Assembly (NCBI GenBank): GCA_904377845.1 | Contig: CAJFGR010000020.1 | Location: forward strand, 1-39,281 | Length of the DNA stretch: 39,281 nucleotides | From: an uncultured Ruminococcus sp. | Lineage (GTDB): Bacteria; Bacillota; Clostridia; Lachnospirales; Lachnospiraceae | Direction: 5' to 3' | Shown: positions 1-28,172 of the stretch, one piece after another | Layout: each line of letters opens with the position of its first letter | How positions within the stretch are numbered: position 1 is the first letter of the stretch | Position numbers and translations under genes: made by a program | Notes under the pieces: generated by a model | What the model was told of the DNA's origin: nothing | Databases searched by the model: none | Seen by the model: the letters and a program-made list of their open reading frames with translations, nothing else

Positions 1-327
1 GATCGCAATGATGATAAATCCGAGCAGAATATAAGATTTCGCATTGATCTTAAAGTTACGGAAGAACTTCGGTCCGGCAATAAAGCCGACAGACGTAACA
101 AAACAGATAAGTCCCAGATCCTGAAACATTCCCAGGCCTTCGACCAGAGCTTCATCATGTCCGAGGAAATGACCGAATACCAGGGCGACAAGCAGCACGC
201 CTGCCGTCCCCAGCTCGACCCCTTTGATCGTAATGCTTCCCACAAGATAGCCGATGGTGGCTACAAGGAATAAGACCATCAGGGTTTCCCCCATTACACT
301 TTCCTGAAACCAGTTAACTAAAAACAT
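1..327 (-). CDS. AspT/YidE/YbjL-type permease, N-terminal part (cut by window edge)
   Basis: Only the first 109 codons are inside the window; the gene runs off base 1. The translation starts MFLVNWFQESVMGETLMVLF and has hydrophobic segments at about residues 14-32, 42-58 and 70-85, with the signature VGSITIKGVELGTAGVLLVA. That is the first repeat of the permease family that includes the aspartate:alanine antiporter AspT and E. coli YidE/YbjL. Its ATG lies 14 bp downstream of the fumarate reductase flavoprotein stop on the same strand, with a GAAAGGGAGAG-type ribosome site, so it is the last visible gene of the redox operon. A dicarboxylate or amino-acid (aspartate, fumarate, succinate) exchange role fits the context, but the substrate is inference. 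Confidence 0.75.
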   Translation of the reverse strand, partial: MFLVNWFQESVMGETLMVLFLVATIGYLVGSITIKGVELGTAGVLLVALVFGHFLGHDEALVEGLGMFQDLGLICFVTSVGFIAGPKFFRNFKINAKSYILLGFIIIAI

Positions 328-341
328 TTTCTCTCCCTTTC

Positions 342-1943
342 CTATCTCTCATGTCTTGCATACTTCGGAAGAAGGAGCGGGGATACATCACCGGTGTCAA
401 TTCCTGCCTTTTTTAACTCCTCAGCGTATGCCTGAATGTGATCCAGATTCATATTACCCAGCTCTACATTCTTCGCTTTCGCAGCGGCAGCCTTACCTGC
501 ATTGCGTCCAAATACGATGATATCCAGAAGCGAGTTGCCCATCAGACGGTTTCTTCCATGAATACCGCCGACAGCCTCTCCTGCTACAAGCAGGTTGTCG
601 ATTACTTTTGTAAATCCGTCTCCGCCGATCTCAAGTCCGCCGTTCTGGTAGTGCAGTGTCGGGTATACAAGAATCGGAAGTTTTCTCATATCGATATCAT
701 ATTTCATGTACATACGGAGCATCGCCGGGATCCGTTTCTCGATCGTTCCCGGTCCGCCGATCATCTCGATCATCGGAGTATCAAGCCATACGCCGCTTCC
801 AAGCGGTGTGTTCACGCCCTTGCCGCGCGCTGTACACTCGCGGATAATGCCTGATGCAGCCACGTCACGTGTCTCCAGCGGATGCATGAACGCCTCACCG
901 TCCACGTTTACAAGCTGTGCACCTACGGAACGTACTTTCTCTGTTACGAGTGCGCCGAAAATCTGGGACGGGAATGCAACTCCTGTCGGGTGATACTGGA
1001 TCGTGTCCTGATACAGGAGCGGAGCTCCCATACGGTATCCGAGGATCAGACCGTCTGCTGTAGCGCCATAGTGGTTTGAAGTCGGGAATCCCTGATAATG
1101 CATACGTCCCGCACCGCCTGTAGCGATGATAACCGTCTTAGCCTTTGCAACAAGGTAATCTTCTGTCTCCAGGTTCTGAAGAACCGCTCCTGCCACCTGG
1201 CCTCTGTCATCTCTGATCAGTTCTACTGCTACAGTGAACTCAGCAACCGGGATCTGGCGGTTTAATACTTCATCGCGGAGTGTACGCATGATCTCAGCTC
1301 CGGAGTAATCCTTGCAGGCGTGCATTCTCTTTCTGGATGTTCCGCCGCCGTGTGTTGTGATCATACGGCCTGTCTCATCCTTATCAAACATAACACCCAG
1401 CTCATTGAGCCATTTGATCGCATCCGGCGCTTCCATAACAAGACGTCTTAAGAGTTCCGGTCTTGCGGCAAAGTGTCCGCCTCCGAATGCATCCAGATAA
1501 TGCTGTACAGGAGAATCATTCTCTTTGTCGGCAGCCTGGATACCGCCCTCTGCCATCATCGTGTTGGCATCGCCGATACGGAGTTTTGTCACGATCATGA
1601 CATTGGCTCCCGCCTCATTTGCCTCGATGGCTGCAGACGCACCTGCGCCGCCGCCGCCGATAACGAGTACGTCAACGTCATAGTCTACTTTGTTAATATC
1701 AACCTTATCTGTGAGCAGACGGCTGTTGGAGTGGAGCAGATGAACCAGCTCCTTCGGCGCCTTCTGTCCTTTGTTCGGTCCTACTTTGATCTCTGCAAAT
1801 GCTTCTTCCCTGTAATCAGGATGGAACTCCTTAAGGAGAGCATCTTTCTCATCCGCCGTCATTCGTCTCGGCTCTACACCCAGACGCTGTGCTCTGGTGG
1901 CCTCCACTTTTTTTACGGATTCCATCATTTCCGGTGTAAACAT
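342..1943 (-). CDS. frdA: Fumarate reductase/succinate dehydrogenase-type flavoprotein subunit
   Basis: A 533-residue flavoprotein of the FrdA/SdhA/NadB superfamily, predicted to reduce fumarate to succinate in the cytoplasm. The FAD dinucleotide motif GGGGAG is at residues 96-101, a substrate-domain motif HGGGTSRKRMHA at about 199-210, HPTG follows mid-protein, and the C-terminal active-site region reads GRNRLMGNSLLDIIVFGR. Where classical FrdA/SdhA has the His that binds FAD covalently (RSHTVAAEGG) this protein has DANTMMAEGG, so the position is Asn (N127), as in L-aspartate oxidases; FAD should be non-covalent. About 90 residues precede the FAD domain, longer than usual. There is no membrane anchor gene nearby, which suggests a soluble enzyme like the methanogen thiol:fumarate reductase TfrA. 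Ribosome site AAGGAGG; 19 bp after the Fe-S subunit. An alternative is another dicarboxylate dehydrogenase, but partner genes favour fumarate reductase. Confidence 0.88.
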   Translation of the reverse strand: MFTPEMMESVKKVEATRAQRLGVEPRRMTADEKDALLKEFHPDYREEAFAEIKVGPNKGQKAPKELVHLLHSNSRLLTDKVDINKVDYDVDVLVIGGGGAGASAAIEANEAGANVMIVTKLRIGDANTMMAEGGIQAADKENDSPVQHYLDAFGGGHFAARPELLRRLVMEAPDAIKWLNELGVMFDKDETGRMITTHGGGTSRKRMHACKDYSGAEIMRTLRDEVLNRQIPVAEFTVAVELIRDDRGQVAGAVLQNLETEDYLVAKAKTVIIATGGAGRMHYQGFPTSNHYGATADGLILGYRMGAPLLYQDTIQYHPTGVAFPSQIFGALVTEKVRSVGAQLVNVDGEAFMHPLETRDVAASGIIRECTARGKGVNTPLGSGVWLDTPMIEMIGGPGTIEKRIPAMLRMYMKYDIDMRKLPILVYPTLHYQNGGLEIGGDGFTKVIDNLLVAGEAVGGIHGRNRLMGNSLLDIIVFGRNAGKAAAAKAKNVELGNMNLDHIQAYAEELKKAGIDTGDVSPLLLPKYARHER

Positions 1944-1962
1944 GATCTTCCCTCCTTATTTC

Positions 1963-2586
1963 TCAATCTCTCTGTTGTTGTAAAGTTCCGTCATAATCAC
2001 CGTGATGGATCTCTTCCACACGTTTTGTAAGGTGTTTGGACTCCGGTGCAATGTATTTGCCTGTAAGTCTTCTTGCCAGTACTCCTACCATCGGGTGGGA
2101 GATCTCTGCCGGACATCTCACGGAGCAGCATCCGCATCCGATACAGTCAAATGACTCTTCCGCACATTTCTCAAACTCGCCGCGCTGCGCATACGCAATA
2201 TACTGCATTACGTTCAGATCCTGTGTGCAGGCCTTTGTGCAGGCGTTACAGCCGATGCAGCTGTAAATTTCCGGATAAAGATCCATCATAATTCTCTGCT
2301 CCGGTTTGATATCTTCAATGTCATAAGTTCTCTTGTCTGTCGGGAAGAACGGAACAGTTGCCACATACATTCCCTCTTCTACCTGGGTCTGACAGGCAAG
2401 GCAGGTCTTCAGCTCATTTTTGCCTTTGATCCTGTAAATTGTCGCACAGGCACCGCAGAAGCCGTGACGGCAGCCGCATCCTCTTTTCAGTGTATAGCCC
2501 GCGTATTCCATGGCTGTCATGATCGTCAGGTCAGCCGGCACACTGTATTTCTTACCGAAAAAATATACATTTACCATATTTTCCAT
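1963..2586 (-). CDS. frdB: Fumarate reductase iron-sulfur subunit (TfrB/FrdB-like)
   Basis: A 207-residue electron-transfer subunit. Residues 1-80 form a ferredoxin-like [2Fe-2S] domain with CGCRHGFCGAC (C37, C39, C44, C47) and a following Cys at 62/65. Two [4Fe-4S] motifs follow: CIGCNACTKAC at 110-120 and CIGCGCCSVRC at 148-158, in an HdrC-like arrangement. In TfrB of methanogens the same layout continues into an HdrB-like CCG domain; here the protein stops after the clusters and a separate hdrB lies upstream in the operon. It should hand electrons to the FrdA flavin. Start: ATG after GGAAAGGAAGAAATATC; a second in-frame ATG three codons in is possible. Only 19 bp separate it from frdA. Confidence 0.87.
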   Translation of the reverse strand: MENMVNVYFFGKKYSVPADLTIMTAMEYAGYTLKRGCGCRHGFCGACATIYRIKGKNELKTCLACQTQVEEGMYVATVPFFPTDKRTYDIEDIKPEQRIMMDLYPEIYSCIGCNACTKACTQDLNVMQYIAYAQRGEFEKCAEESFDCIGCGCCSVRCPAEISHPMVGVLARRLTGKYIAPESKHLTKRVEEIHHGDYDGTLQQQRD

Positions 2587-2603
2587 GATATTTCTTCCTT
2601 TCC

Positions 2604-2684
2604 CTAGTATTCATTCGGCATCTCATCGATTTCATCGCACCGAAATACCGGACCGTCTTTACATACATATTTTGAACCGATGTT
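2604..2684 (-). pseudogene. Out-of-frame 3' remnant of flxA
   Basis: Reading the minus strand from 2684 to the TAG at 2604-2606 gives NIGSKYVCKDGPVFRCDE..., the conserved end of the FlxA/PyrK-like family, in a frame different from the upstream flxA ORF. The original stop at 2604 would leave a normal 17-bp gap to the next gene, whereas the truncated ORF leaves 72 bp. Both facts say the ancestral gene ended here. Confidence 0.85.
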
Positions 2685-3384
2685 CGAGCTCCTCAAGGCC
2701 GGCCAGAGTAAACTTGATCATGATCGGAGGTCCGCAGATCAGTGCTGTCTTGTTTACATCGAATCCCAGTTCCTTCACGTAATTCGGCACAAATCCGACA
2801 TGGCCGTCCCAGCCTTCCTGCTCACGGTCAATTGTCAGGTGGACGTGTACGTCCGGAGCGTTCATCCATACTTCCTGGATTTCTTTTAACTGAACCAGAT
2901 CGTCGGCGGAACGGGAACCATAGACGATATCTACTGTGCCGTAGTCGTCACGGTTGTCCAGCACATAATTGATAACAGAACGCAGCGGCGCAAGTCCGAT
3001 ACCTCCGGCGATAAACAGCAGGTCTTTTCCTTTTAGTTTGTCCTCTACCGGGAAATGATTGCCGTACGGACCTCTGACCGTGATCTCGTCGCCCACTTCA
3101 AGACTGTGAAGATAATCTGTGAGCACTCCGCATTTCTTGATGCTGAATTCCTGATATTCTTTGTTGGTCGGCGAAGAAGTAATCGAAAACATACCTTCGC
3201 TGATTCCCGGTGCGCAGAGCATTGCACACTGTCCCGGCATATGCTCAAAAAGTTTGCCGCCCTCCGGAGCATTGACACGGAATGTTTTCACATCCGGCGT
3301 CTCCTCGCGGATGTCAGTGATCACGCCTACTTTCGGGATCAGGGTATCCAGTGTATAGTTTTTGTGACACGTACATTCACTCAT
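2659..3384 (-). CDS. flxA: FlxA-like FAD/NAD(P)-binding oxidoreductase subunit, 3' end lost by frameshifting deletion
   Basis: A ferredoxin-NADP reductase/PyrK-type flavoprotein, the NADH entry subunit of FlxABCD-HdrABC complexes. The FAD-binding barrel contains FSITSSP (about 66-72) and RGPYGNHFP (104-112); the nucleotide domain has AGGIGLAPLRS (126-136) and CGPPIM near the end. Family proteins finish with a [2Fe-2S] segment of the type KCGxGKCGRCNIGxxYVCKDGPVF. Here residues are native only to about GLEEL (229-233); then HRFKICM and a stop follow, while NIGSKYVCKDGPVF continues in another frame just downstream (2604-2684). About 20-25 codons holding three of the four cluster Cys are missing. 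The gene starts at the TAATG overlap with flxB, after AGGGAGGTG. As written the product should lack its [2Fe-2S] cluster and is probably impaired; an assembly or sequencing error is equally possible. Confidence 0.85.
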   Translation of the reverse strand: MSECTCHKNYTLDTLIPKVGVITDIREETPDVKTFRVNAPEGGKLFEHMPGQCAMLCAPGISEGMFSITSSPTNKEYQEFSIKKCGVLTDYLHSLEVGDEITVRGPYGNHFPVEDKLKGKDLLFIAGGIGLAPLRSVINYVLDNRDDYGTVDIVYGSRSADDLVQLKEIQEVWMNAPDVHVHLTIDREQEGWDGHVGFVPNYVKELGFDVNKTALICGPPIMIKFTLAGLEELEHRFKICM

Positions 3385-4424
3385 TACTTTTCACCTCCCT
3401 GTTTTGCAAATGCCTTGATAACTTTTACGATATTTAAGGATTCCGGACATTTCTCCACGCATCTTCCGCATCCCACGCAGGAATACATACCGTCGTTGTT
3501 GGCCGGGAAGTATACCAGCTTATGCATGAATCTCTGGCGGAATCTCTCTTTCTGTGATTTACGGTTATTACCGTGTGCCATCATCGTGAAATCCGAGTAC
3601 ATACAGGAATCCCAGCAGCGGTATCTCTGCACGCCGTTCTTCCCTGTATCATAATCCTTGATGTCATAACACTGACAGGTCGGGCAGACAAACGTACAGG
3701 TGCCGCACGCAAGACACGGTTTGTACAGTTCGTCCCAGAGCGGATCCTCAAATTTCTCCATAAGCACGTCTCCGTTCCACCCCTCGAGAGAGAGATGCGT
3801 GTACGGAAGCTGCTCCACAATTCCGCGGATCGCTTCTTTTTCTTTCTCAACAGTCTCGTCTGCGTCTGCATCCTCCGTGAGCAGGTCGGCAACAGCTTTC
3901 GTAAGTGCCTCGCCTTTTTCTGTAAGTGCTTTCCAATACAGATCCTCTCCGATCATCCATGTAGCAACATCTGCAGCCGGTTCTGCCGCATCAATGCCGA
4001 ACACCTTACAGAAGCAGGTTTCCTCCGGCTCATGGCAGGCAAGAGCAACGATCGTGCCGTGGTCTCTTCTGGCCGCATAGAATGTATCAAGCGGATCCAC
4101 AAGAAATACTTTGTCCAGCACCTCCACGCCTCTCACGTCGCAGGCCTTCATTCCGAATACGACAAAATCCTGCTCTTTCAGCGCTTCCGGCTCAATATTG
4201 ATCTTCTTTCCGTCCCTGACACAGGTATAGAGTGTCTCACTCTGCGGGAAGAAAGCATCTTTCGGAGATTTTACTGTTTTTAACGTATCGATATCAACCT
4301 GGGCATCCTCAGACCATGCGGCAAAGTTTACCTGGCCTTCGTTTCTTACCGGAAGATATAATTCCTGTTCTGCGGCAATTTTCTGAAATAATGCCGTCAG
4401 ATTTTCTTTCGCTATCTTATACAT
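3384..4424 (-). CDS. flxB: FlxB-like 4Fe-4S dicluster subunit (hydrogenase/sulfite reductase beta-like)
   Basis: A 346-residue electron-transfer protein similar to the AsrA/HydB-type subunit of sulfhydrogenases and anaerobic sulfite reductases. The N-terminal 235 residues are the family's cofactor-free domain, with CACDVRG-like and CHEPEETCFC cysteine patches at about 95 and 130-139. Two [4Fe-4S] motifs follow: CLACGTCTFVC at 237-247 and CVGCGRCVEKC at 316-326. It should pass electrons between the FlxA flavin/NADH site and the rest of the Flx-Hdr assembly. It overlaps flxC by 13 bp and flxA by 1 bp (TAATG), typical of translational coupling. Start ATG at 4424 lies after AAAGGGG; no truncation seen. 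Confidence 0.85.
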   Translation of the reverse strand: MYKIAKENLTALFQKIAAEQELYLPVRNEGQVNFAAWSEDAQVDIDTLKTVKSPKDAFFPQSETLYTCVRDGKKINIEPEALKEQDFVVFGMKACDVRGVEVLDKVFLVDPLDTFYAARRDHGTIVALACHEPEETCFCKVFGIDAAEPAADVATWMIGEDLYWKALTEKGEALTKAVADLLTEDADADETVEKEKEAIRGIVEQLPYTHLSLEGWNGDVLMEKFEDPLWDELYKPCLACGTCTFVCPTCQCYDIKDYDTGKNGVQRYRCWDSCMYSDFTMMAHGNNRKSQKERFRQRFMHKLVYFPANNDGMYSCVGCGRCVEKCPESLNIVKVIKAFAKQGGEK

Positions 4425-5386
4425 ACATTATCCCCTTTCTGCCACAATTCCCGGCTCTGCGTCTTCAGCGGAGTTCTCGGCTCAAGGTCAGCACCCGCCT
4501 GATATTCTCCATAGAGCTCGTTGATATCTTTGATAAATTTCCGGTTGAACAGGTGAAGCCGGATCCCCTGCGGACAGACTCTGCTGCACTCGCCGCAGTC
4601 CGTACATCTTCCCGCTACATGGAATGCGCGGATGATGTGGAACATCTTTTCCTCAAAGGAATCTACATTCGCCTTCTGTGCGCTGTCAAACTTGTTGCTG
4701 TCAAACACACATTTGCGGCAGCTGCAGGCCGGGCATACATTACGGCAGGCATTGCAGCGGATACATTTGCTCAGTTCTTTCTGGAAGAATGCAAATTTCT
4801 CTTCCGGGCTCATAGCCTCAATCTTTTCTACTTCCGCAAATCTGTCTGCGTCTTTTGTCTCTTTGGACTCGCCGATGATCTCGTCAAATACCATGTGGTC
4901 TTTGCCCTTGCATACATGGCATCGCTCAAGCATAGCGTCTGTGTACGCACAGCTCTTCTCTCCATAGATCGTATCGATCGTAAGTGTCTCTGCTTCGTCT
5001 TCGATCTCTGCACCGGAGATGCTCTTGATACCTTTGATCCCCATAGCTTTGATCTTCTCGATGTCAAGCTTTCCTTTGCATCCCACACCGATGATATACG
5101 CTTTGTCTCTGTCCACACGGTGCTCTTTCATCAGCTCCTGGAAGCTGTATGTATCACATGGTTTTAAGCATACAAGCGTCTTACCTTCCAGTTTGGAAGC
5201 CTCGATCATATATTTGCTCAAGTTTGCTCCGCAGAATCCGTTGTACACGAAATCCGCAAAGTCTTCTTCTTTCTCAAAGTAAGCCGGTTCCGGATTGTAA
5301 GGCAGGTCCCCGGCTTTCCATCCGAGCACTCTTGCCACGGTTCCGTCGGCCAGAAGCTCTTTTGCGCGGTTGATTAATTCCTGCAT
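4412..5386 (-). CDS. flxC: FlxC-like Fe-S subunit (coenzyme F420 hydrogenase/dehydrogenase beta-related)
   Basis: A 324-residue protein. The N-terminal half carries the FrhB/CoF420 dehydrogenase-type motifs GFCGANLSKY (50-59), KPCDTYSFQEL and GVGCKGK (101-106), then ERCHVCKG near 155-161. Ferredoxin motifs are CIRCNACRNVC (208-218, followed by PACSC) and CTDCGECSRVC (261-271). This pair of consecutive, partly similar Fe-S genes (FlxC and FlxB) is characteristic of FlxABCD loci. It overlaps the MvhD-like gene by 13 bp; ribosome site TTGGAGG is inside that gene. An electron-wire role is inferred from family and context. Confidence 0.83.
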   Translation of the reverse strand: MQELINRAKELLADGTVARVLGWKAGDLPYNPEPAYFEKEEDFADFVYNGFCGANLSKYMIEASKLEGKTLVCLKPCDTYSFQELMKEHRVDRDKAYIIGVGCKGKLDIEKIKAMGIKGIKSISGAEIEDEAETLTIDTIYGEKSCAYTDAMLERCHVCKGKDHMVFDEIIGESKETKDADRFAEVEKIEAMSPEEKFAFFQKELSKCIRCNACRNVCPACSCRKCVFDSNKFDSAQKANVDSFEEKMFHIIRAFHVAGRCTDCGECSRVCPQGIRLHLFNRKFIKDINELYGEYQAGADLEPRTPLKTQSRELWQKGDNVCIR

Positions 5387-5817
5387 CTTAAATCCTCCAA
5401 TCTTACGTTTTTGCCGAGGGATGTGATCTTGTCCACAAACTCATGCATTGTCTGTGAGAACTTCGCACCCTCTGCGGCTGATACCCACTCCACGCGGGTA
5501 CGGCCGTTTTCCACTCCGATGTAATCAAGCATGGAGAAGAGAAGTGTCATACGTCTTCTTGCGTAGAAGTTACCGGAAGTATAATGGCAGTCTCCCGGAT
5601 GGCATCCGCACATGATAACACCGTCCGCTCCCCTTTCAAACGCTCTTAAGATGAACATCGGATTGACACGGCAGGAGCAGGGAACGCGGATGATCTTGAC
5701 GTCCGCCGAGTAGGTCATACGGCTGCTTCCCGCGAGATCCGCTCCGGCGTAGCTGCACCAGTTGCAGCAGAACGCCACGATCTTTGGTCTGAATTCTTCA
5801 TTCTTTTCTATCGACAT
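5374..5817 (-). CDS. flxD: MvhD/FlxD-like [2Fe-2S] electron-transfer subunit
   Basis: A 147-residue MvhD-family protein that links an electron donor module to HdrA. Cysteine patches are CCNWC (17-21), PCSCR (46-50) and CGCHPGDC (70-77), matching the family's conserved set. A longer reading upstream to 5916 is open, but the start at 5817 is preferred: GCGGAGGTAGATGCGAT precedes it, the length then matches MvhD (about 140 aa), and the extra residues would lie wholly inside hdrA. It overlaps the hdrA end by 10 bp. In methanogens MvhD couples hydrogenase to Hdr; here, with no hydrogenase genes, it should couple the FlxABC NADH module. Confidence 0.87.
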   Translation of the reverse strand: MSIEKNEEFRPKIVAFCCNWCSYAGADLAGSSRMTYSADVKIIRVPCSCRVNPMFILRAFERGADGVIMCGCHPGDCHYTSGNFYARRRMTLLFSMLDYIGVENGRTRVEWVSAAEGAKFSQTMHEFVDKITSLGKNVRLEDLRCRN

Positions 5818-7796
5818 ATCGCATCTACCTCCGCTAGAATCTGTCTGTTCGAGAATCCCTGCAGGTCCATTGCTCCGGACGGACACGTTACGGTACAAGC
5901 ACCGCATCCCTGACAAAGCGCATCGTTTACAACTGCAATACGTCTTGTCTCACGGACTCCGTGATCATTCACCTCTTTATCTTCGTAGGTGATCGCTCCA
6001 TACGGGCACACATTTGCACACTGGGAACATCCGTTACACAGGAGTTCATCAGAATGTGCCGTACAAGGATTGGTCAGCAGTTTATCTTTGGCAAGAAGTC
6101 CGATTGCCTTCACAGCAGCCGCTCCTGCCTGAGATACAGTCTCCGGGATATCTTTCGGTCCCTGACATACACCGGAAAGGAAGATGCCGGCTGTCGGTGA
6201 CTCTACCGGACGAAGTTTTGCATGGGCCTCTGTGAGGAAGTTGTTCGTATCGATACTTGCTGTCAGCATAGTAGCGATCTTTCTTACATCCGGGTTCGGC
6301 TCGATCGCTGCTGCAAGAACAACCATATCTGCCTCTTTTAAGATCTGTTTGTTATCCAGAAGGTCAGCGCCCTGAACGAGCAGCTTTCCGTTGGGCTGCG
6401 GAATGACTTTTCCGACTTGTCCCTTGATGTAGTTTACCCCGTAGTCTTCTACGGCTCTGCGGTAGAACTCATCGAAGTTCTTGCCCGGTGTTCTCACATC
6501 AATATAGAAAACAGTTACATTTGTATCCGGATACTTATCGCGGATAAGCATTGCATGTTTTGCTGTGTACATACAGCAGACCTTGGAACAGTAGCTCTTT
6601 CCTCTGTCGTCTGCGCAGCGGCTTCCAACGCACTGGATAAATACCATTTCCTTCGGAGCTTTTCCGTCAGAGAGACGCTCCAGATGTCCGCCTGTCGGTC
6701 CTGCTGCGTTCATGATACGCTCCAGCTCGAGAGATGTGATGACATCCTTGCTCTGGCTGTATGCATACTCATCATATTTGTCAAGTTTGATCATATCGAA
6801 GCCTGTTGCCACAACGATAGCTCCGTATTTCTCTGTTACGATCTCATCGATCTGATCGTAGTCGATAGCGCCTGCCTGGCACACTTTTGAGCAGATACCA
6901 CATTTTCCGGTCTTGAACTTGATGCAGGCATCACGGTCGATAACCGGAACGTTCGGAACTGCCTGTGCGAACGGTGTGTAAATCGCACTTCTCGTACTTA
7001 AACCGCGGTTGAACTCGCTCGGTGTCTTCTTGCTCGGGCATTTTTCCTGACATACACCGCAGCCTGTACATTTATTCATATCCACGCTTCTTGCTTTTTT
7101 ACGGATCTCAACTGTGAAATCCCCAACGAAACCGGATACGCTCTCTACTTCACTGTATGTATAGATATTGATGAGCGGATGTGCGTTCACTTCTCCCATC
7201 TTCGGCGTCAGAATACATGACGAACAGTCCAGTGTCGGGAATGTCTTGTCAAGCTGTGACATTCTTCCGCCGATACTCGGTGTCTTCTCAACAATATCAA
7301 CCGGATATCCCGCCTCTGCAATGTCAAGCGCTGTCTGGATACCTGCAATACCTCCGCCGATTACGAGCGCTCTCTTTGTAACACGGCTCTCGCCCGGCTT
7401 AAGCGGTGCGTCCAGATTTACTTTCGCTACTGCCGCACGCATCAGGATGACAGCTTTTTCTGTCGCTTCCTCAATATCTTTGTGAATCCATGAACAGTGC
7501 TCACGGATATTTGCGATCTCTACCATATACGGGTTAAGTCCCGCTCTCTCCGCTGCGTTTCTGAATGTCGTCTCATGCATACGCGGAGAACATGAACAGA
7601 CGACAAGTCCGGTCAGATGTTTCTCTTTGATGGCTTTCTGGATCTTCTCCTGTCCTGCCTCGGAACACATATACTGATAGTCCTCGGCGTGGACAACTCC
7701 CGGCTCGTGGAGCGCCATCTCAGCGACTTTCTTTACGTCTACCGTGGCTGCGATATTGGATCCGCAGTGGCAGACAAATACTCCTATCCTCTGCAC
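5808..7796 (-). CDS. hdrA: HdrA: FAD and Fe-S heterodisulfide reductase subunit A (bifurcating flavin)
   Basis: A 662-residue HdrA. An N-terminal domain with FVCHCG (7-12) and VCSCSP (66-71) precedes the FAD Rossmann motif VIGGGIAGIQTALDIAEAG (145-163). The HdrA cluster residues CSSC (191-194) follow, then CTGCGVCQEKC (243-253), CIKFKTGKCGICSKVC (291-306), QCVGSRC and YCSKVCCM in the thioredoxin-reductase-like part, and two C-terminal [4Fe-4S] motifs at 587-597 and 628-638 that in known HdrA enzymes deliver low-potential electrons to ferredoxin. Full-length for the family. It starts with GTG at 7796, preceded by AGGAGGTGAT, a perfect anti-SD match, 6 bp after hdrC. In HdrABC-MvhD systems this flavin performs electron bifurcation; that it does so here is inference. 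Confidence 0.92.
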   Translation of the reverse strand: MQRIGVFVCHCGSNIAATVDVKKVAEMALHEPGVVHAEDYQYMCSEAGQEKIQKAIKEKHLTGLVVCSCSPRMHETTFRNAAERAGLNPYMVEIANIREHCSWIHKDIEEATEKAVILMRAAVAKVNLDAPLKPGESRVTKRALVIGGGIAGIQTALDIAEAGYPVDIVEKTPSIGGRMSQLDKTFPTLDCSSCILTPKMGEVNAHPLINIYTYSEVESVSGFVGDFTVEIRKKARSVDMNKCTGCGVCQEKCPSKKTPSEFNRGLSTRSAIYTPFAQAVPNVPVIDRDACIKFKTGKCGICSKVCQAGAIDYDQIDEIVTEKYGAIVVATGFDMIKLDKYDEYAYSQSKDVITSLELERIMNAAGPTGGHLERLSDGKAPKEMVFIQCVGSRCADDRGKSYCSKVCCMYTAKHAMLIRDKYPDTNVTVFYIDVRTPGKNFDEFYRRAVEDYGVNYIKGQVGKVIPQPNGKLLVQGADLLDNKQILKEADMVVLAAAIEPNPDVRKIATMLTASIDTNNFLTEAHAKLRPVESPTAGIFLSGVCQGPKDIPETVSQAGAAAVKAIGLLAKDKLLTNPCTAHSDELLCNGCSQCANVCPYGAITYEDKEVNDHGVRETRRIAVVNDALCQGCGACTVTCPSGAMDLQGFSNRQILAEVDAICR

Positions 7797-7802
7797 CTGT
7801 TA

Positions 7803-8192
7803 TCACCTCCTGTATCTTCTGAGTGCACTTACGAGAAGCTGCTGCGGTGTATCGGGATCTACAAGTTCCGGGATCTCGTCCGCCAGCAGATAGTTCTGGC
7901 CTCTCTCACGCACAACGATCTGTCTTGCAGCGTCGATCAGCTTGCCCGGCTTTACATCGCGCGGACATCTCTCTACGCAGGCAAAGCAGGAGAGACATTT
8001 CCAGAGTGATTTTGATTTAACCAGAGATTCTATGTCCTCATTGATCACGTAAGAAACGAACTGGTGCGGTTTGATATCCATTTCGTTGTAGGAAGGGCAG
8101 GAAGCGGAACATTTACCGCATTTCATGCATTTCAGCGGATTCACGCCGCTGATCTCTTTGATCATCTCTGCGCGACTGTGTTCTGTTTTCAC
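7803..8192 (-). CDS. hdrC: HdrC: 4Fe-4S heterodisulfide reductase subunit C
   Basis: A 129-residue ferredoxin-like protein with two [4Fe-4S] motifs, CMKCGKCSASC (22-32) and CLSCFACVERC (66-76), flanked by the HdrC helical context. It relays electrons from HdrA to HdrB. It starts with GTG at 8192 inside a GTGA overlap with hdrB, with AGAGGAGGTGG upstream. Length and cluster spacing are normal for bacterial HdrC. Confidence 0.9.
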   Translation of the reverse strand: MKTEHSRAEMIKEISGVNPLKCMKCGKCSASCPSYNEMDIKPHQFVSYVINEDIESLVKSKSLWKCLSCFACVERCPRDVKPGKLIDAARQIVVRERGQNYLLADEIPELVDPDTPQQLLVSALRRYRR

Positions 8193-8986
8193 TGCTCATC
8201 CACCTCCTCTTTAAGTCCCAGCGCCTCTGCCAGAAGTTCTGTAAAGTAGTAAACCGGCAGATTGCCGCCATTGTTCTTGTTCAGGTTATACATACACAGC
8301 GGACAGGCTGTAATCAGCATATCAGCGCCGAATCCTGCTGCGCTTTCTTCGATCTTGCGGCACATATTCTTGGACATATCTTCTTCTTTCAGTGATATGT
8401 ATCCGCCGCAGCACTCATTTCTGTACGGATAGATCACAGGCTCTGCGCCGATGGCACGGATAAAGTCCTCCATGATCGTCGGATTTTCCGGATTATCGAA
8501 CGCCATCAGTTTGCCCGGACGGAGAAGAAGACAGCCGTAGTAGGCTCCAATCTTTTTACCTGTAAGCGGTTTTACGACTTTTTTCTTCAGCTCGTCAAAT
8601 CCCACGCGGTCGCGGAGCACCTCAAGATAATGAAGTACTGTCGTCTCTCCGGCGTAGGGCTCGTCGAGTTTCATATAGTTGTTCGCCCTTGTGCGGATAT
8701 CATCGACATTTTTCATGTCATCATTTACCCTTTTGATCACATGATGGCAGGCCGAACAGACTGTGACCAGATCCTGTCCGTGCTCTTTTGCATCATTCAG
8801 TGCACGTACAGAAGCCAGCTTGGTAGCAATTTCGTCCGTGCCGAGCGGATACACGCCGCCGCAGCACTGCCACTCGCTGATCTCTTCCAGCTCGAAGCCC
8901 AAAGCCTCTGCGGACACTCTGGCATAGTGATCCAGATCCACTGCCTTGTTCTTCAGAGTACAGCCGGGGAAATAGCTGTATTTCAT
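8189..8986 (-). CDS. hdrB: HdrB: CCG-domain heterodisulfide reductase subunit B
   Basis: A 265-residue protein with two CCG repeats: C9, C41-C42, C77/C80 (YFPGCTLKNK, WQCCGG, CSAC) and C152, C192-C193, C228/C231 (YYGCLL, NECCGG, CPLC). In HdrB such Cys sets hold non-cubane [4Fe-4S] clusters that cleave disulfides. The open frame extends to 9139, but the start at 8986 is chosen because AAAGGAGGTAAACACT precedes it, the protein then starts exactly at the first CCG domain, and the extension would overlap the dehydrogenase gene. It lies 14 bp after that gene. No DsrC or other disulfide partner is encoded in the window; the FrdB/FrdA pair may be the electron sink. Confidence 0.9.
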   Translation of the reverse strand: MKYSYFPGCTLKNKAVDLDHYARVSAEALGFELEEISEWQCCGGVYPLGTDEIATKLASVRALNDAKEHGQDLVTVCSACHHVIKRVNDDMKNVDDIRTRANNYMKLDEPYAGETTVLHYLEVLRDRVGFDELKKKVVKPLTGKKIGAYYGCLLLRPGKLMAFDNPENPTIMEDFIRAIGAEPVIYPYRNECCGGYISLKEEDMSKNMCRKIEESAAGFGADMLITACPLCMYNLNKNNGGNLPVYYFTELLAEALGLKEEVDEQ

Positions 8987-9000
8987 AGTGTTTACCTCCT

Positions 9001-9948
9001 TTAGATATCTAACTGAGCGATTACTTCTTTCAGCTTGTTTGCGCTTGCCTGAAGTTTTTCGATCTCTTCGTCTGTCAGGTGCATCGGAACCTTGCCCTGC
9101 ACTCCGTTCGGGCCGACAAGTGAAAGAACACTTAAGCATACGTCGTCAACACCGTACTCTCCGTGCATCATAGAAGATACAGTTGCGACAGAGTCGGAAG
9201 CTGCGAGCACCAGGTTACACAGCTCAACAACAGAAACAGCTACTGCATAGAATGTAGCCCCTTTCTTAGCGATAACCTGTCCGCCTGATTTGTGCACATA
9301 TTCTTCCATTCCCGGTTTGTCAAGCTCTTCAAGATCTGCGCCAAGGGCTTTCATTTCTTTGTAGTAGTCGTCGATCGGCATACTTGCAATGTTAGCTCCT
9401 GACCACGGAACGAAGGAAGAATCGCCGTGCTCGCCGTATACATATGCATGAATATTCTTCTGTGCCACTTTGAAATGTCTGGACAGTCCGTAGCGGAGAC
9501 GTGCTGTATCCAGAAGTGTTCCTGATCCGATGATCTGATTCTCCGGAAGTCCTGAGATCTTTGTAAATACATAAGTCAGAACGTCAACCGGATTGCTTAC
9601 GATGATATATTTTGCATCCGGTGCTGCTTTTACAATCTCCGGCGTAATAGATTTGATGATATTAACGTTTGTCTGTGCAAGCTCGATTCTTGTCTGGCCG
9701 GGCTTACGTGCGATACCGGATGTAATGATAACGATATCGGATCCTTTCGCATCCTCATAATCGCCTGCAACGATGGAGATCGGGCTTCTGAAGCAGGTTC
9801 CCTGCTCGATATCCATAACTTCGCCTTCTACCTTGTCTTTGTTAATGTCGATCATAACGATCTCGGATGCGAAGTCCTCATAGGAAAGTTTGTACGCAAT
9901 TGTAGCTCCGACACTTCCCGCGCCGATGATAGTAATTTTGCTGCTCAT
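9001..9948 (-). CDS. mdh: LDH-fold NAD-dependent dehydrogenase, predicted malate dehydrogenase
   Basis: A 315-residue member of the L-lactate/malate dehydrogenase family. The NAD motif GAGSVG is at 9-14, with the NAD-selecting Asp at the end of strand 2 (VMIDIN, D34). Catalytic His is H174 in GEHGDSS, with D147 and R150 in LLDTARLR. The specificity loop reads GIARKPGQTRIEL: the residue equivalent to LDH Gln102 is Arg (R81), followed by loop Arg R87. ARKPG is what malate dehydrogenases have, and LDH-like malate dehydrogenases have PRQPGQTRIDL-type loops. Automatic annotation may say lactate dehydrogenase. First gene of the operon, AGAGGAG ribosome site, promoter and Rex-like site upstream. Oxaloacetate-to-malate supplies the fumarate branch; a fumarase is not in the window. 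Confidence 0.8.
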   Translation of the reverse strand: MSSKITIIGAGSVGATIAYKLSYEDFASEIVMIDINKDKVEGEVMDIEQGTCFRSPISIVAGDYEDAKGSDIVIITSGIARKPGQTRIELAQTNVNIIKSITPEIVKAAPDAKYIIVSNPVDVLTYVFTKISGLPENQIIGSGTLLDTARLRYGLSRHFKVAQKNIHAYVYGEHGDSSFVPWSGANIASMPIDDYYKEMKALGADLEELDKPGMEEYVHKSGGQVIAKKGATFYAVAVSVVELCNLVLAASDSVATVSSMMHGEYGVDDVCLSVLSLVGPNGVQGKVPMHLTDEEIEKLQASANKLKEVIAQLDI

Positions 9949-10116: not shown

Positions 10117-10145
10117 ATCATATCACATTGTTAATAATTTGACAA
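10117..10145 (-). promoter_or_regulatory. Promoter of the mdh-hdr-flx-frd operon
   Basis: On the minus strand, TTGTCA (10145-10140) and TATGAT (10122-10117) are separated by 17 bp. The leader to the mdh ATG is about 160 nt and AT-rich. No other comparable promoter is seen within the operon, whose genes overlap or nearly touch. Within 9949-10335 I see this promoter, the Rex-like site, the csoR promoter, and about 130 bp (10146-10278) with nothing recognised. Confidence 0.75.
10128..10145. promoter_or_regulatory. Rex-like operator overlapping the operon -35
   Basis: The 18-mer TTGTTAATAATTTGACAA (plus strand) matches the clostridial Rex consensus TTGTTAANNNNTTAACAA except at one position. It covers the -35 hexamer and part of the spacer, where a repressor would block RNA polymerase. 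Rex releases DNA when NADH/NAD+ is high, which suits an operon that disposes of NADH to fumarate. The rex gene itself is not in the window. Confidence 0.75.
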
Positions 10146-10278: not shown

Positions 10279-10307
10279 TTGACAAAAATCCGTGCTTATT
10301 CGATAAT
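10279..10307 (+). promoter_or_regulatory. Promoter of the csoR-like gene
   Basis: TTGACA (10279-10284), 17 bp, GATAAT (10302-10307), then 28 bp to the ATG with AAGGAGG. No C-rich/G-rich sensor dyad like those at the ATPase promoter is visible here, so the sensor may not regulate itself. Confidence 0.6.
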
Positions 10308-10335
10308 AACAGAAAACAATCAAGGAGGACTGACT

Positions 10336-10611
10336 ATGAAACAGTGTATGGATTCTGACAATCTGCACCGACGTCTGAAAAAAATCATCGGACAGGTGCA
10401 GGCAATCGACCGGATGATCGACGAAGATATTCCCTGTGAAGATATCCTTTCGCAGATAAACGCGGCAAAATCCGCCCTGCATAAAGTGGGACAGATCGTC
10501 CTTGAAGGACACATCAACCATTGTGTCCGGGATGGTATTGAGCACGGAGACGTTGATCAGACAATTGCAAACTTTACCAAAGCAGTAGAGCGATTTGCAA
10601 ATATGAAATAA
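10336..10611 (+). CDS. csoR: CsoR/FrmR-family metal-sensing repressor
   Basis: A 91-residue all-helical DUF156 protein. The family core LHRRLKKIIGQVQAIDRMI is at 10-28. The metal site of copper sensors is present: C34 (IPCED), H59 and C63 (EGHINHC), equivalent to the C-H-C trigonal Cu(I) site of CsoR. That favours CsoR over the formaldehyde sensor FrmR. The open frame starts at 10279, but the ATG at 10336 is used because CAAGGAGGACTGACT precedes it and the upstream codons overlap the promoter. It lies 215 bp before a P1B ATPase on the same strand, whose promoter carries two dyads of the CsoR operator type. Cu(I) is likely but not certain as ligand. Confidence 0.85.
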   Translation: MKQCMDSDNLHRRLKKIIGQVQAIDRMIDEDIPCEDILSQINAAKSALHKVGQIVLEGHINHCVRDGIEHGDVDQTIANFTKAVERFANMK

Positions 10612-10742
10612 ACCAAACATACTCACCTGTTCTGCACGGGGTGCTGTATACTCGCATATATGCATCCTGTCCGGAGCAAATACAGGCGCACAAAAGTATT
10701 CGAGAATTTTTCTCATCTTTTGTGTGTTTTTCTTTTATTTCG

Positions 10743-10796
10743 TTGACAACCTATACCCCTATAGGTATATTATATACCCATACCCACATGGGTATG
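10743..10796 (+). promoter_or_regulatory. P1B-ATPase promoter with two CsoR-like operator dyads
   Basis: TTGACA (10743-10748), 17 bp, TATATT (10766-10771). The spacer and -10 hold ATACCCCTATAGGTAT (10753-10768), an imperfect dyad of ATACC/GGTAT arms. A second, perfect dyad CATACCC-ACAT-GGGTATG lies at 10779-10796 around the expected start site. C-tract/G-tract dyads with A/T ends are the recognised form of CsoR-family operators. Confidence 0.75.
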
Positions 10797-10825
10797 AATC
10801 GTTATCTGCAAGGAGATCTGCTATT

Positions 10826-12709
10826 ATGATAAAGAAACTCGAAGAAATTATGGAATGGGGCGGAGTAAAGCGGGATATTACTTTTCTGTTTCTATCCGGA
10901 GCCGCCCTTCTGTTCAGTATCTTCGGATACTCTCCCTTTTCATTTGATATGGCCTGGATTGCTATTATCCTGTGCGGAGTACCGATCATCATGGAGGCAC
11001 TCATCGGACTTGTTACGGCTTTTGATATTAAGGCGGATGTTCTCGTCTCCATCGCTCTTATTGCTTCCGTTATCATCGGAGAGGACTTTGCCGCCGGTGA
11101 AGTCGCATTTATTATGCAGCTGGGAGCGCTCTTGGAGGATCTGACCGTGGCAAGGGCCCGCGCGGGGATCGAAAAACTGGTCCATCTGACGCCCCGTACT
11201 GCCCGGAAAATCTCGGGCACATCTGAAGAAGTTATCCCCGCAGAAAATGTTCAGGTAGGTGATATACTGCGCGTCCTCCCCGGAGAGGCCATCCCTGTTG
11301 ACGGAGTGATCACTTCCGGCGAAACGTCTGTCAATCAGGCAGTCATGACGGGGGAATCTCTTCCCGTAGACAAAAGCCCCGGAGATGAAGTATCCAGCGG
11401 CACTGTGAACCAGTTCGGCGCTTTTGAGATGCGGGCGTCAAAAGTCGGGGAGGATAGTTCAATTCAGAGGATGATCCGTCTTGTACAGTCAGCTGATGCA
11501 GGCAAGGCAAAAATCGTAAGTCTTGCAGACCGGTGGGCTACATGGATTGTAGTAATCGCGCTGACTTCCGCGGTGCTTACATGGCTGATTTCCGGTGAGA
11601 TCATTCGTGCAGTGACAATTCTTGTCGTGTTCTGTCCATGCGCCCTTGTGCTTGCCACCCCCACTGCCATCATGGCGGCGATCGGGAACGCCACAAAACA
11701 CGGTTTTCTTGTCCGCGAGGGGGACGCGCTGGAACGACTGGCGGCTGTAAAAAAAATCACATTTGATAAGACAGGGACACTCACCTATGGCACACCGCAG
11801 GTGACCGCTGTAGTAAGTTGCCTGAAAGATCTGTCATGGAGAGATCTGTATGCATATGCAGTCAGTGCAGAACTCAATTCCGAACATCCCCTCGGGAAAT
11901 CCATTGTCCGTTCCTATAAAGAAGAAATGAAAAAAACGCCGGCCGCTCCGGAAGACTTTAAAATGCTGCCGGGAAGAGGTGTGCAGGCTTTGACAGGCGG
12001 CCGCAGAGTTCTCGCCGGGAATCCGGAACTATTTGCCGAGAACGATATTTCTCTCACAGAGGAAATGATCGGAAAGGCTGAGGTCTTTCTCGAGAGAGGC
12101 TGCACTGTTATCTACCTTGCAATAGACAAAAAAAGCGCCGGTTTTATCGCTCTTTCCGACACACTGCGCCAGAATGCGGCGGATACTATAGACGCTGTAA
12201 AAGCCTGCGGGGTGACTCCTGTTCTTCTGACGGGAGACCATAAAAATGCTGCCGGACATATCGCCCGACAGCTCCATATCAGTGAAATGCACGCTGACTG
12301 CCTGCCTGAAGACAAATTGAACTGGATTGATTCCTATGAACAGCAGAATCAGCCCGTCTGTATGATCGGAGACGGCATCAATGATGCCCCGGCGCTAAAA
12401 AAAGCCTGCGTGGGCATCGCCATGGGCAAGATCGGAAGCGACATTGCCGTAGACGCAGCAGATATCGCTCTGGTAAACGATGACATCCGGGAACTCCCCC
12501 ATCTGCTCCGGCTTTCCAAAAGGATGATGACGACAATCCGCCTGAACCTTACATTTTCTATGACTTTGAATTTTGTGGCAATCATCCTTGCTATAACCGG
12601 TATTTTGAATCCGGTCGTAGGCGCGCTGGTGCATAATGCCGGTTCCGTACTGGTCATTATAAACTCTGCGCTGCTTCTGGGATGGAAGGCGAGGCTGAGG
12701 AAACCCTGA
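10826..12709 (+). CDS. Heavy-metal P1B-type ATPase without N-terminal metal-binding domain
   Basis: A 627-residue transporter. Motifs: actuator TGES (175-178), transmembrane CPC (270-272), phosphorylation DKTGTLT (D314), EHPLGKS, and GDGINDAP (515-522). The protein begins directly with the membrane domain (no GMxCxxC HMA domain). The last helices read HNAGSVLVIINSALLLGW, which is neither the MxxSS of Cu+ pumps nor the D of Zn/Cd pumps, but recalls the HEGxT of P1B-4 pumps although those have SPC. Metal is therefore uncertain; export of Cu+ or another soft/transition metal is the best guess from the CsoR context. Start at ATG 10826 after CAAGGAGATCTGCTATT; the frame is open upstream to 10724, but that would cover the promoter. 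Convergent with the next gene. Confidence 0.85.
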   Translation: MIKKLEEIMEWGGVKRDITFLFLSGAALLFSIFGYSPFSFDMAWIAIILCGVPIIMEALIGLVTAFDIKADVLVSIALIASVIIGEDFAAGEVAFIMQLGALLEDLTVARARAGIEKLVHLTPRTARKISGTSEEVIPAENVQVGDILRVLPGEAIPVDGVITSGETSVNQAVMTGESLPVDKSPGDEVSSGTVNQFGAFEMRASKVGEDSSIQRMIRLVQSADAGKAKIVSLADRWATWIVVIALTSAVLTWLISGEIIRAVTILVVFCPCALVLATPTAIMAAIGNATKHGFLVREGDALERLAAVKKITFDKTGTLTYGTPQVTAVVSCLKDLSWRDLYAYAVSAELNSEHPLGKSIVRSYKEEMKKTPAAPEDFKMLPGRGVQALTGGRRVLAGNPELFAENDISLTEEMIGKAEVFLERGCTVIYLAIDKKSAGFIALSDTLRQNAADTIDAVKACGVTPVLLTGDHKNAAGHIARQLHISEMHADCLPEDKLNWIDSYEQQNQPVCMIGDGINDAPALKKACVGIAMGKIGSDIAVDAADIALVNDDIRELPHLLRLSKRMMTTIRLNLTFSMTLNFVAIILAITGILNPVVGALVHNAGSVLVIINSALLLGWKARLRKP

Positions 12710-24171: not shown

Positions 24172-24196
24172 AGTCGCTCTCCCTTATTTACAAATT

Positions 24197-24217
24197 GCCC
24201 CGCCGGATCAGCGGGGC
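24197..24217 (-). terminator. GC-rich hairpin between GPH transporter and GH78
   Basis: Arms GCCCCGC (24197-24203) and GCGGGGC (24211-24217) with a 7-nt loop. On the minus strand it is followed only by AATTTGT, so it may be a leaky terminator or an mRNA-stabilising stem that sets differential expression within the locus. Confidence 0.5.
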
Positions 24218-24239
24218 TGTTTATATAATGTTTGATTAT

Positions 24240-25655: not shown

Positions 25656-25691
25656 TTTCTCTCTTCCTTTCTCTTCATTCTTCCTGATCTG

Positions 25692-27992: not shown

Positions 27993-28042
27993 TGTTGTTC
28001 CTCCTTTAACTGTACCCATTGTATGACAGAATCCGGAGACAG

Positions 28043-28080
28043 TATTTTATATTTGTTCTCTATTTTATATTTTTGTTCTG
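28043..28080. repeat. Tandem direct repeats, probable AraC activator sites at the GH3 promoter
   Basis: Plus strand TATTTTATATTTGTTCTC (28043-28060) is directly followed by TATTTTATATTTTTGTTCTG (28061-28080). Two same-direction copies about one to two helical turns long fit AraC-family binding. On the minus strand a TACAAT -10 at 28023-28018 lies 19 bp beyond the near copy, so the sites would overlap the -35 of the GH3 promoter. Confidence 0.65.
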
Positions 28081-28172
28081 TTTTTTTCTTGACTGAGCTT
28101 CTATTTCTTATTAAACTGGTTTATAAGGACATATTGATTATGTCGAATATACGATAAGGAGGATGTGTATAT

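Follow-up and report, generated by a model that had tools for sequence, protein, structure and literature searches.

The 39,281-nucleotide stretch of DNA analysed here (the window) represents an entire contig (CAJFGR010000020.1, hereafter C20) of the assembly GCA_904377845.1 from an uncultured Ruminococcus sp. of the family Lachnospiraceae. One end of the window harbors an operon of ten genes, all located on the minus strand between positions 9948 and 342 and arranged, in the order first described, as mdh-hdrBCA-flxDCBA-frdBA. It joins a predicted malate dehydrogenase and a soluble fumarate reductase (FrdAB) to heterodisulfide reductase-type HdrABC and FlxABCD proteins, and the initial annotation had proposed that it encodes a cytoplasmic fumarate reductase that bifurcates electrons from NADH to fumarate and ferredoxin. 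The genes are the following:

9001..9948, minus strand: mdh, predicted malate dehydrogenase of the lactate dehydrogenase (LDH)-like group with Arg at the substrate-specificity position
8189..8986, minus strand: hdrB, two CCG domains with ten cluster cysteines (PF02754 in two stretches)
7803..8192, minus strand: hdrC, two [4Fe-4S] sites (Pfam and NCBIfam matches, eight invariant cysteines)
5808..7796, minus strand: hdrA, FAD and iron-sulfur subunit with the bifurcation signature E359/K413
5374..5817, minus strand: flxD/mvhD (PF02662, E 9.1e-53)
4412..5386, minus strand: flxC, iron-sulfur protein (Pfam and NCBIfam matches)
3384..4424, minus strand: flxB, HydB/AsrA-like iron-sulfur protein (PF17179)
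2659..3384, minus strand: flxA, HydG/AsrB-like FAD/NAD(P)H subunit with a broken 3' end (241 versus 284 residues)
1963..2586, minus strand: frdB, one [2Fe-2S] and two [4Fe-4S] sites, without a CCG domain and with an altered 3' end
342..1943, minus strand: frdA, fumarate reductase flavoprotein (Pfam and NCBIfam matches, alignment and fold match)
1..327, minus strand: 5' part of an eleventh gene for an AspT/YidE/YbjL-type antiporter, which runs off the contig end

Neighboring genes overlap by 1-13 nt or are separated by gaps of 6-19 nt, the exception being the flxA-frdB junction (72 nt). The coordinates thus bear out the earlier description of ten same-strand genes with overlaps or gaps below 20 bp apart from a scar at flxA. 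Pfam and NCBIfam searches concur with the subunit names given beforehand, with a caveat for the first gene. Its product exceeds the NCBIfam cut-off for L-LDH (343.9 versus 303.55 bits), and the closest solved structures bear the name L-LDH. The specificity position is occupied by Arg (IARKPG), which we take to denote a malate dehydrogenase where Gln would denote an LDH, and the same residue was found in 56 of the 57 loci with a match (51 by pattern, five by eye; the site is not covered in the 57th). The identity as L-LDH was set aside for this residue and for the neighborhood of fumarase and frd, and the sequence-based name malate dehydrogenase holds despite the L-LDH score.

The antiporter gene was named from its full-length ortholog in a relative (locus L055; PF06826, TIGR01625). 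A second contig of the same genome (C30) starts with 76 bases identical to the end of the window and carries the rest of the antiporter, followed on the same strand by the alpha and beta subunits of a class I fumarase, whose alpha subunit is the single copy found in the genome. The overlap of C20 and C30 and the presence of the fumarase thus bring the route from oxaloacetate to succinate together in one cluster. The initial annotation was right about the ten genes, but it missed the fumarase and the transporter beyond and at the window edge, as well as a Rex-type site and a lesion in frdB that are described below. The closest FrdA matches stem from metagenome-assembled genomes (MAGs) of Mediterraneibacter (98-99% identity), and judged by these matches the host of the operon appears to be a Mediterraneibacter-like member of the Lachnospiraceae.

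The conservation of the operon was investigated in 250 sampled genomes from the family, among them that of the window, and in a scan of named genomes with an FrdA alignment. FrdA is present at 67-100% identity in 23 of the 250 genomes, the next matches reaching at most 167 bits. HdrA with at least 70% identity occurs in 24, all of which harbor frdA (23) or, in the case of G163, a contig-cut frdB directly after flxA. The scan yielded at least 590 candidate stretches, with at least 559 relatives at E <= 1e-3. From these we retained the top 80 loci, which include Mediterraneibacter, Mordavella, Blautia, Dorea, Oscillospiraceae MAGs and one Synergistaceae MAG. Pooling both sources resulted in 100 loci, 75 of which have more than 7.6 kb upstream. 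The exact order hdrB-hdrC-hdrA-flxD-flxC-flxB-flxA-frdB-frdA is found in all 75 loci with room (73 distinct genomes; two genomes are counted twice, and L034 and L068 are scored as having the order with a broken hdrA frame), thus indicating that the arrangement is not due to chance. Named strains such as Mordavella massiliensis An420c, Blautia luti, B. schinkii and [Clostridium] asparagiforme DSM 15981 are among the carriers. A shared gene order in relatives was the check on which the initial annotation had staked its proposal, and frdAB is indeed tied to hdr-flx.

The gene frdB immediately precedes frdA in 94 of 94 loci. Short or broken frames are confined to hdrA (2/76; L034, L068), flxC (1/83; L130) and frdA (1/100; L128), i.e. 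to single relatives that are mostly drafts or MAGs, and none was seen in hdrB, hdrC, flxB, flxA or frdB where these are in view. Where the named loci extend far enough, mdh was found upstream of the operon in 35 of 50 cases and the gene for fumarase alpha on the downstream side in 54 of 65, two more having a class II fumarase in the locus. A class II fumarase is located between mdh and hdrB, or directly before hdrB, in 11 loci (in L129 with 716.8 bits to TIGR00979).

The spacer between flxA and frdB, measured from the end of the FlxA match, spans 318-575 bp in L064, L083, L094, L100 and L113 versus about 174 bp. Three further genomes of the family sample (G219, G021 and G050, corresponding to loci L136, L137 and L138) have an HdrA of only about 53-56% identity in a different Flx-Hdr operon with no frd in the stretch. 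In L136 (2123-16328), this second type of Flx-HdrABC operon is flanked on one side by genes for a molybdopterin oxidoreductase (AhtL/DMSO-reductase-like), an iron-sulfur protein and a polyprenyl synthase, and on the other by those for a radical SAM protein and a prenyltransferase of the UbiA/MenA kind; L138 resembles L136 in the size and order of its open reading frames. This type is possibly tied to a prenylated-quinone or molybdenum-enzyme chain.

Upstream of mdh two overlapping elements were recognized:

10128..10145, minus strand: Rex-type operator TTGTCAAATTATTAACAA, one mismatch to the consensus TTGTTAANNNNTTAACAA
10117..10145, minus strand: sigma-70-like promoter TTGTCA-17-TATGAT (10 of 12 matches), its second hexamer preceded by TG

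The Rex-type site, whose consensus we take to be the Rex motif, overlies the first hexamer of the promoter and part of its spacer; the four other consensus matches in the window have three mismatches each. The promoter match alone is weak, as shuffled regions yield 1.2 such sites each. Our comparison of 72 upstream regions, the window included, revealed a Rex-type site with up to two mismatches in 36 (expected 0.85, standard deviation 0.89, maximum 3 in 60 shuffle rounds) and with up to one mismatch in 15 (expected 0.02). These regions share ancestry and are not independent; the sites nevertheless vary in sequence and distance. The set was reduced from 80 to 72 by the omission of L034 and L135 (mis-sized), L052, L059 and L064 (too short), L082 and L095 (duplicates of L036 and L039) and, for no sound reason, L139, whose site with two mismatches would have favored our reading. 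The genome encodes a PRK05472-family protein (245 bits, cut-off 126), presumably Rex, which would derepress the operon at high NADH.

The Flx-Hdr part of the operon exhibits the hallmarks of FlxABCD-HdrABC, namely, an MvhD/FlxD subunit, a HydB/AsrA- and HydG/AsrB-like module and an HdrB with two CCG domains. Features of an NADH module are present in FlxB and FlxA (NCBIfam ShyB 192.7 bits, PRK08345 157.1 bits, below the equivalog and subfamily cut-offs). HdrB matches the structures 9sfi_C (E 1e-36) and 5odc_B, and its ten cluster cysteines, which complete both CCG sites, are invariant in 79 of 79 sequences, as are the eight cysteines of HdrC (79/79); for the cysteine counts of HdrA, HdrB, HdrC, FlxA and FrdB, partial matches were left out and two duplicate genomes kept. 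Residues 3-660 of HdrA align with residues 5-649 of 5odc_A (E 1e-205), the iron-sulfur motifs of the inserted ferredoxin domain included, and most of its cluster cysteines are invariant. E356 and K409 of the Methanothermococcus thermolithotrophicus HdrA are described as marks of the bifurcating flavin (PMC9430772; this and the other PMC articles named below are cited from excerpts). Their equivalents in the window are E359 and K413, and all 81 aligned sequences have E and K at these positions.

These properties of HdrA bear on the alternative of a non-bifurcating NADH:fumarate reductase, in which every electron would reach fumarate and Hdr would merely serve as a wire. Rex-type control suits such a plain NADH sink, and succinate formation regenerates NAD+ by itself. 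The universal HdrA signature, the retention of most cluster cysteines and the full-length alignment to the bifurcating 5odc_A argue otherwise, and a wire of seven subunits would waste a span of about 350 mV; we therefore regard this alternative as quite unlikely.

FrdA has an N-terminal extension of about 85 residues and lacks a Succ_DH_flav_C domain. Its residues H318, T334, E335, R359, H431 and R466, which we take to be those for dicarboxylate binding and proton shuttling, align with SdhA of 7d6v and show no variation across two sets of 15 and 27 sequences. The aligned histidine of complex II, which presumably carries the covalent FAD, is replaced by an invariant Asn127. Enzymes that have lost this histidine are better suited to reducing fumarate than to oxidizing succinate. 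A structure model of FrdA (predicted local distance difference test, pLDDT, 77; predicted template modeling score, pTM, 0.83) has its best fold match in E. coli FrdA (1kf6_A, E 9e-28, TM 0.64); the corresponding model of FrdB was too poor (pLDDT 57) and set aside. Thirteen cysteines of FrdB are invariant in 95 of 95 sequences and account for one [2Fe-2S] and two CxxCxxCxxxC motifs. No membrane anchor was detected among the scanned operon genes of the window and the transporter and fumarase orthologs of L055, anchors elsewhere in the genome not having been searched.

The best NCBIfam score of FrdA is that to TfrA, the flavoprotein of the methanogen thiol:fumarate reductase, at 324.2 bits and thus well under the cut-off of 718. 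FrdB (207-225 residues) is devoid of PF02754 and matches the TfrB model at 19-86 only; weak matches to separate parts of this model are distributed over FrdB, HdrC and HdrB (35.8, 25.8 and 38.2 bits). In a second alternative, patterned on this methanogen enzyme, Flx-HdrABC would reduce a low-molecular or protein disulfide at HdrB while bifurcating to ferredoxin, and FrdAB would separately oxidize the thiol and thereby reduce fumarate. The strict conservation of the ten non-cubane-cluster cysteines of HdrB and the TfrA score of FrdA speak in its favor, and Flx-Hdr has been described as passing electrons to ferredoxin and thiols (PMC7282089). FrdB, however, lacks the thiol-oxidizing CCG domain, so that no thiol site is visible in FrdAB alone, and the genome has no match to DsrC, which was accordingly rejected as disulfide partner. 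Moreover, CCG subunits may act as wires or anchors: the top NCBIfam score of HdrB is SdhE of methylmenaquinol:fumarate reductase (143.7 versus 139.6 bits for HdrB, both below the cut-offs), and in Sporomusa MetF was recovered in pulldowns with HdrB, though their complex did not copurify (PMC9430772). We consider the thiol-coupled scheme unlikely. The idea that fumarate replaces the heterodisulfide as high-potential acceptor is a plausible inference, but with both CCG sites of HdrB retained a thiol/disulfide step is possible.

The reading that we favor is a cytoplasmic bifurcation from NADH to fumarate and ferredoxin in which HdrB passes electrons to FrdB, and the sequence evidence makes it, in our judgment, the probable one. 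The coupling of a soluble FrdAB to a bifurcating-type Flx-HdrABC, as initially proposed, gains support from the conservation of the operon, the bifurcation residues of HdrA, the lack of a DsrC match in the genome and of a MenD match above the cut-off, and the lack of an anchor in those operon genes that were scanned. In the proposed scheme, oxaloacetate would be converted to fumarate by malate dehydrogenase and class I fumarase, and FlxABCD would take hydride from NADH and deliver electrons via FlxD to the FAD of HdrA, where they would be bifurcated. The low-potential electrons would then leave through the ferredoxin domain of HdrA to ferredoxin, and the high-potential ones would run via HdrC and HdrB into the iron-sulfur clusters of FrdB and finally reach FrdA, where fumarate would be reduced. 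The net reaction would be 2 NADH + fumarate + Fd(ox) -> 2 NAD+ + succinate + Fd(red), which by our own arithmetic yields about -33 to -49 kJ/mol at ferredoxin (Fd) potentials of -500 to -420 mV. The other values entered are -320 mV for NAD and +33 mV for fumarate (PMC5861303). Reduced ferredoxin could feed Rnf or hydrogenase, and the AspT-like carrier may export succinate. What the sequence shows is the gene content, the synteny, the signature residues, the operator-like sites and the presence of genes for RnfC, PEPCK (phosphoenolpyruvate carboxykinase) and a Rex-type repressor; the assembly of a complex, the path and direction of electron flow, the bifurcation, the control by Rex and the transported substrate are inferred.

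The genome-wide setting is compatible with this scheme. RnfC, the one Rnf subunit searched, is encoded (509.6 bits), as are an ATP-dependent phosphoenolpyruvate carboxykinase (PEPCK, 675.3 bits) and five proteins with [FeFe]-hydrogenase-domain matches above the cut-off. With PEPCK, malate dehydrogenase, fumarase and FrdAB present, the route from PEPCK to FrdAB is complete. No match to MenD exceeded the cut-off, and menaquinone-linked fumarate reduction was set aside on this basis, the futalosine route not having been searched. The lack of DsrC, initially noted for the window, extends to the whole genome, in which no match was found, and that of a membrane anchor applies to the operon genes scanned.

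The distribution of FrdBA outside the family allowed us to ask which Hdr subunit accompanies it. The outside set comprises 19 FrdA loci taken from 18 genomes, out of 38 others that had full-length matches (15 families, one to three genomes each), and hdrB is clustered with frdBA in seven of them. L184 and L186 are of particular relevance: hdrBC adjoins frdB, and neither hdrA nor flx was detected in the stretch. HdrB identity to the protein of the window is 45-46% in six linked outside loci versus 29-31% in three unlinked genomes; HdrA identity, where in view, is alike in linked (51-62%) and unlinked (53-55%) cases. Distances alone were used for this comparison, since three-group unrooted trees cannot conflict, and a conflict between the HdrA and HdrB trees was accordingly dropped as proof of partner switching. 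The outside hdrB-frdBA clusters, the tracking of linkage by HdrB identity and the docking of CCG subunits to other enzymes, as seen in the SdhE score and in Sporomusa MetF, suggest that HdrB is the link to FrdB.

No Hdr was detected in the remaining 12 of the 19 outside FrdBA loci, and FrdBA can therefore use other donors. In those examined, FrdBA has as neighbors malic enzyme (L185, L198), an isocitrate/isopropylmalate dehydrogenase (L197) or proteins of the FMN_bind or cytochrome type (L183, L191). Such neighborhoods speak for a third alternative, in which FrdAB and Flx-Hdr would be separate enzymes, FrdAB with another donor and Flx-Hdr with another acceptor, brought into one operon by their common role as redox sinks. 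The two are never separated in the 73 genomes with the nine-gene order, though, and the HdrBC-FrdBA sets of L184 and L186 as well as the HdrB identities link FrdAB to HdrB itself, which renders mere co-regulation highly improbable.

In L183 (8376-11216) and L191 (4878-6290), FrdBA is located beside FMN_bind and small iron-sulfur proteins, and L183 also encodes a protein that combines cytochrome domains of the NapC/NirT and c7 types; the same fumarate reductase family thus occurs in a quite different electron-transfer setting. L189 (6422-10891) harbors an HdrA of 1489 residues that is fused to a GltD/NAD(P)H domain, and its FrdBA cluster contains another HdrA and two HdrB. The fusion resembles the HdrA architecture of Moorella (PMC9430772).

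A broader reading of these loci is that HdrBC-FrdBA represents a 'split Tfr', a cytoplasmic head for fumarate reduction that could be exchanged between systems, HdrB wiring its FrdB to varied bifurcating engines (FlxABCD-HdrA, GltD-HdrA fusions or HdrA alone). It would serve a Rex-controlled, quinone-free and energy-conserving fumarate respiration that provides succinate and reduced ferredoxin for Rnf and is widespread in gut Clostridia. We see this joint reading as evenly balanced between right and wrong.

Several observations weigh against the proposed bifurcation to fumarate via HdrB. Its support derives from sequence rather than from biochemistry. The HdrA signature marks bifurcating enzymes by correlation only, and three HdrA unlinked to frd, included among the 81, carry the same E and K. 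Both complete CCG cluster sites of HdrB are retained and not obviously needed for the reduction of FrdB. FrdBA dispenses with a detectable Hdr in the twelve outside loci mentioned above, and the HdrB proteins of the linked locus L189 show 42% and 34% identity. The argument that HdrB follows FrdAB is one of distances and involves three unlinked genomes, there being no conflict in topology between the trees of HdrA and HdrB. The other 36 of the 72 upstream regions have no Rex-type site with up to two mismatches. Finally, the flxA of the window lacks three conserved cysteines and its frdB the conserved C-terminus, so that this copy may not work as drawn.

The two lesions were traced by comparison with relatives. 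In flxA a 74-bp deletion (junction 2684..2685, minus strand) removed the CGxGxCGRC motif, whose three lost cysteines are retained by the other 84 aligned sequences of FlxA, and shortened the protein from 284 to 241 residues; it explains the scar reported initially. A programmed FlxA-FrdB frameshift was ruled out, as the region is a deletion relative to relatives. In frdB a net 44-bp deletion near 1990-1991 replaced the last 25 residues by eight others (207 instead of 224 residues). Among relatives whose sequence includes the start of the gene, FlxA is full length in 89 of 89 and FrdB in 94 of 94.

It is a separate question, which concerns this copy only, whether the operon is decaying in the strain or the lesions are assembly errors, the window copy in either case not being the working form; we give this explanation an even chance. 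In its favor, the two deletions are not multiples of three and lie about 700 bp apart in genes that are full length in the relatives. The contig end, inside the antiporter gene and with its exact overlap to C30, is within 2.7 kb of both, and other draft relatives have breaks in hdrA, frdA or flxC (see above). On the other side, the seven other operon genes differ from those of L057-L063 by at most a one-residue indel (mdh left out; flxD compared with L060, L061 and L033 only). The lesions are confined to the window copy, and the evidence from conservation and signatures, which is drawn from relatives, is thus unaffected.

The central hypothesis is already in print. PMC7282089 describes a 'succinate operon' of Pseudoclostridium thermosuccinogenes with an assumed coupling of fumarate reduction and ferredoxin and cites a preprint (Koendjbiharie & van Kranenburg 2019). 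According to the gene content described there, fumarase, Flx-Hdr, fumarate reductase and a putative succinate transporter are likewise united in one operon, and the proposal of the initial annotation cannot be regarded as a new idea. The cluster of the window differs from this description in mdh as first gene, a class I fumarase downstream and the Rex-type site. The open-licence PMC literature searched, as far as it was available in excerpts, contained no enzymology or assay of a Flx-Hdr-FrdAB complex.

In tubeworm symbionts and Thioflavicoccus, tfrAB is interspersed with flxABCD-hdrABC in reverse tricarboxylic acid cycle clusters, and a complex with direct electron transfer has been suggested (PMC6315080). 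Those organisms are autotrophic Gammaproteobacteria that possess KorABCD and ATP citrate lyase, whereas the operon investigated here belongs to a gut Clostridium. HdrBCA-MvhD-MetVF of Sporomusa and Moorella also joins HdrABC and MvhD to another reductase, with HdrB-MetF and HdrA-MetF interactions found by pulldown, but its acceptor is methylene-tetrahydrofolate and no FlxABC is named in the excerpts (PMC9430772).

FlxABCD-HdrABC of Desulfovibrio vulgaris consists of the same kinds of subunits, which are here instead fixed to FrdAB, malate dehydrogenase and fumarase; the Desulfovibrio system has reportedly been linked to ethanol metabolism and thiols (said to be the work of Ramos 2015). The methanogen TfrAB resembles the system in the affinity of FrdA to TfrA and of FrdB, HdrC and HdrB to separate parts of TfrB, and differs in that FrdA scores far below the cut-off and the CCG domain is not fused to FrdB, HdrB being a separate protein. 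Quinol:fumarate reductase and complex II share the FrdA fold and the dicarboxylate residues. The operon deviates from them in the absence of an anchor among the genes scanned, of the covalent-FAD histidine and of Succ_DH_flav_C, and in the two 4Fe-4S motifs of FrdB, the iron-sulfur subunit of complex II having a set of 4Fe-4S and 3Fe-4S clusters.

The interpretation is therefore plausible and better supported than before, but neither new nor demonstrated. The present analysis adds the conservation in gut Clostridia, the Rex-type control, the fumarase and transporter, and the occurrence of HdrBC-FrdBA with other engines outside the family. If the interpretation is true, fumarate would be a source of energy for many gut Lachnospiraceae and their relatives, which would charge ferredoxin for use by Rnf and would need neither a quinone nor a membrane-bound fumarate reductase. 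The modelling of succinate yield, H2 and redox balance in gut and rumen would change, and fumarate would join the high-potential acceptors of flavin-based electron bifurcation. The named strains with the nine-gene order make the claim directly testable.

Two further regions of the window lie apart from the operon. Divergent from it, a CsoR-type metal repressor gene (PF02583) and a gene that, from our own reading of the sequence, we take to encode a P-type metal ATPase occupy positions 10279-12709 on the plus strand. Positions 18644-29375 contain genes for alpha-L-rhamnosidases, glycoside hydrolases of families GH43 and GH3, an MFS sugar transporter and an AraC regulator, and this region looks like a locus for plant-glycan utilisation.

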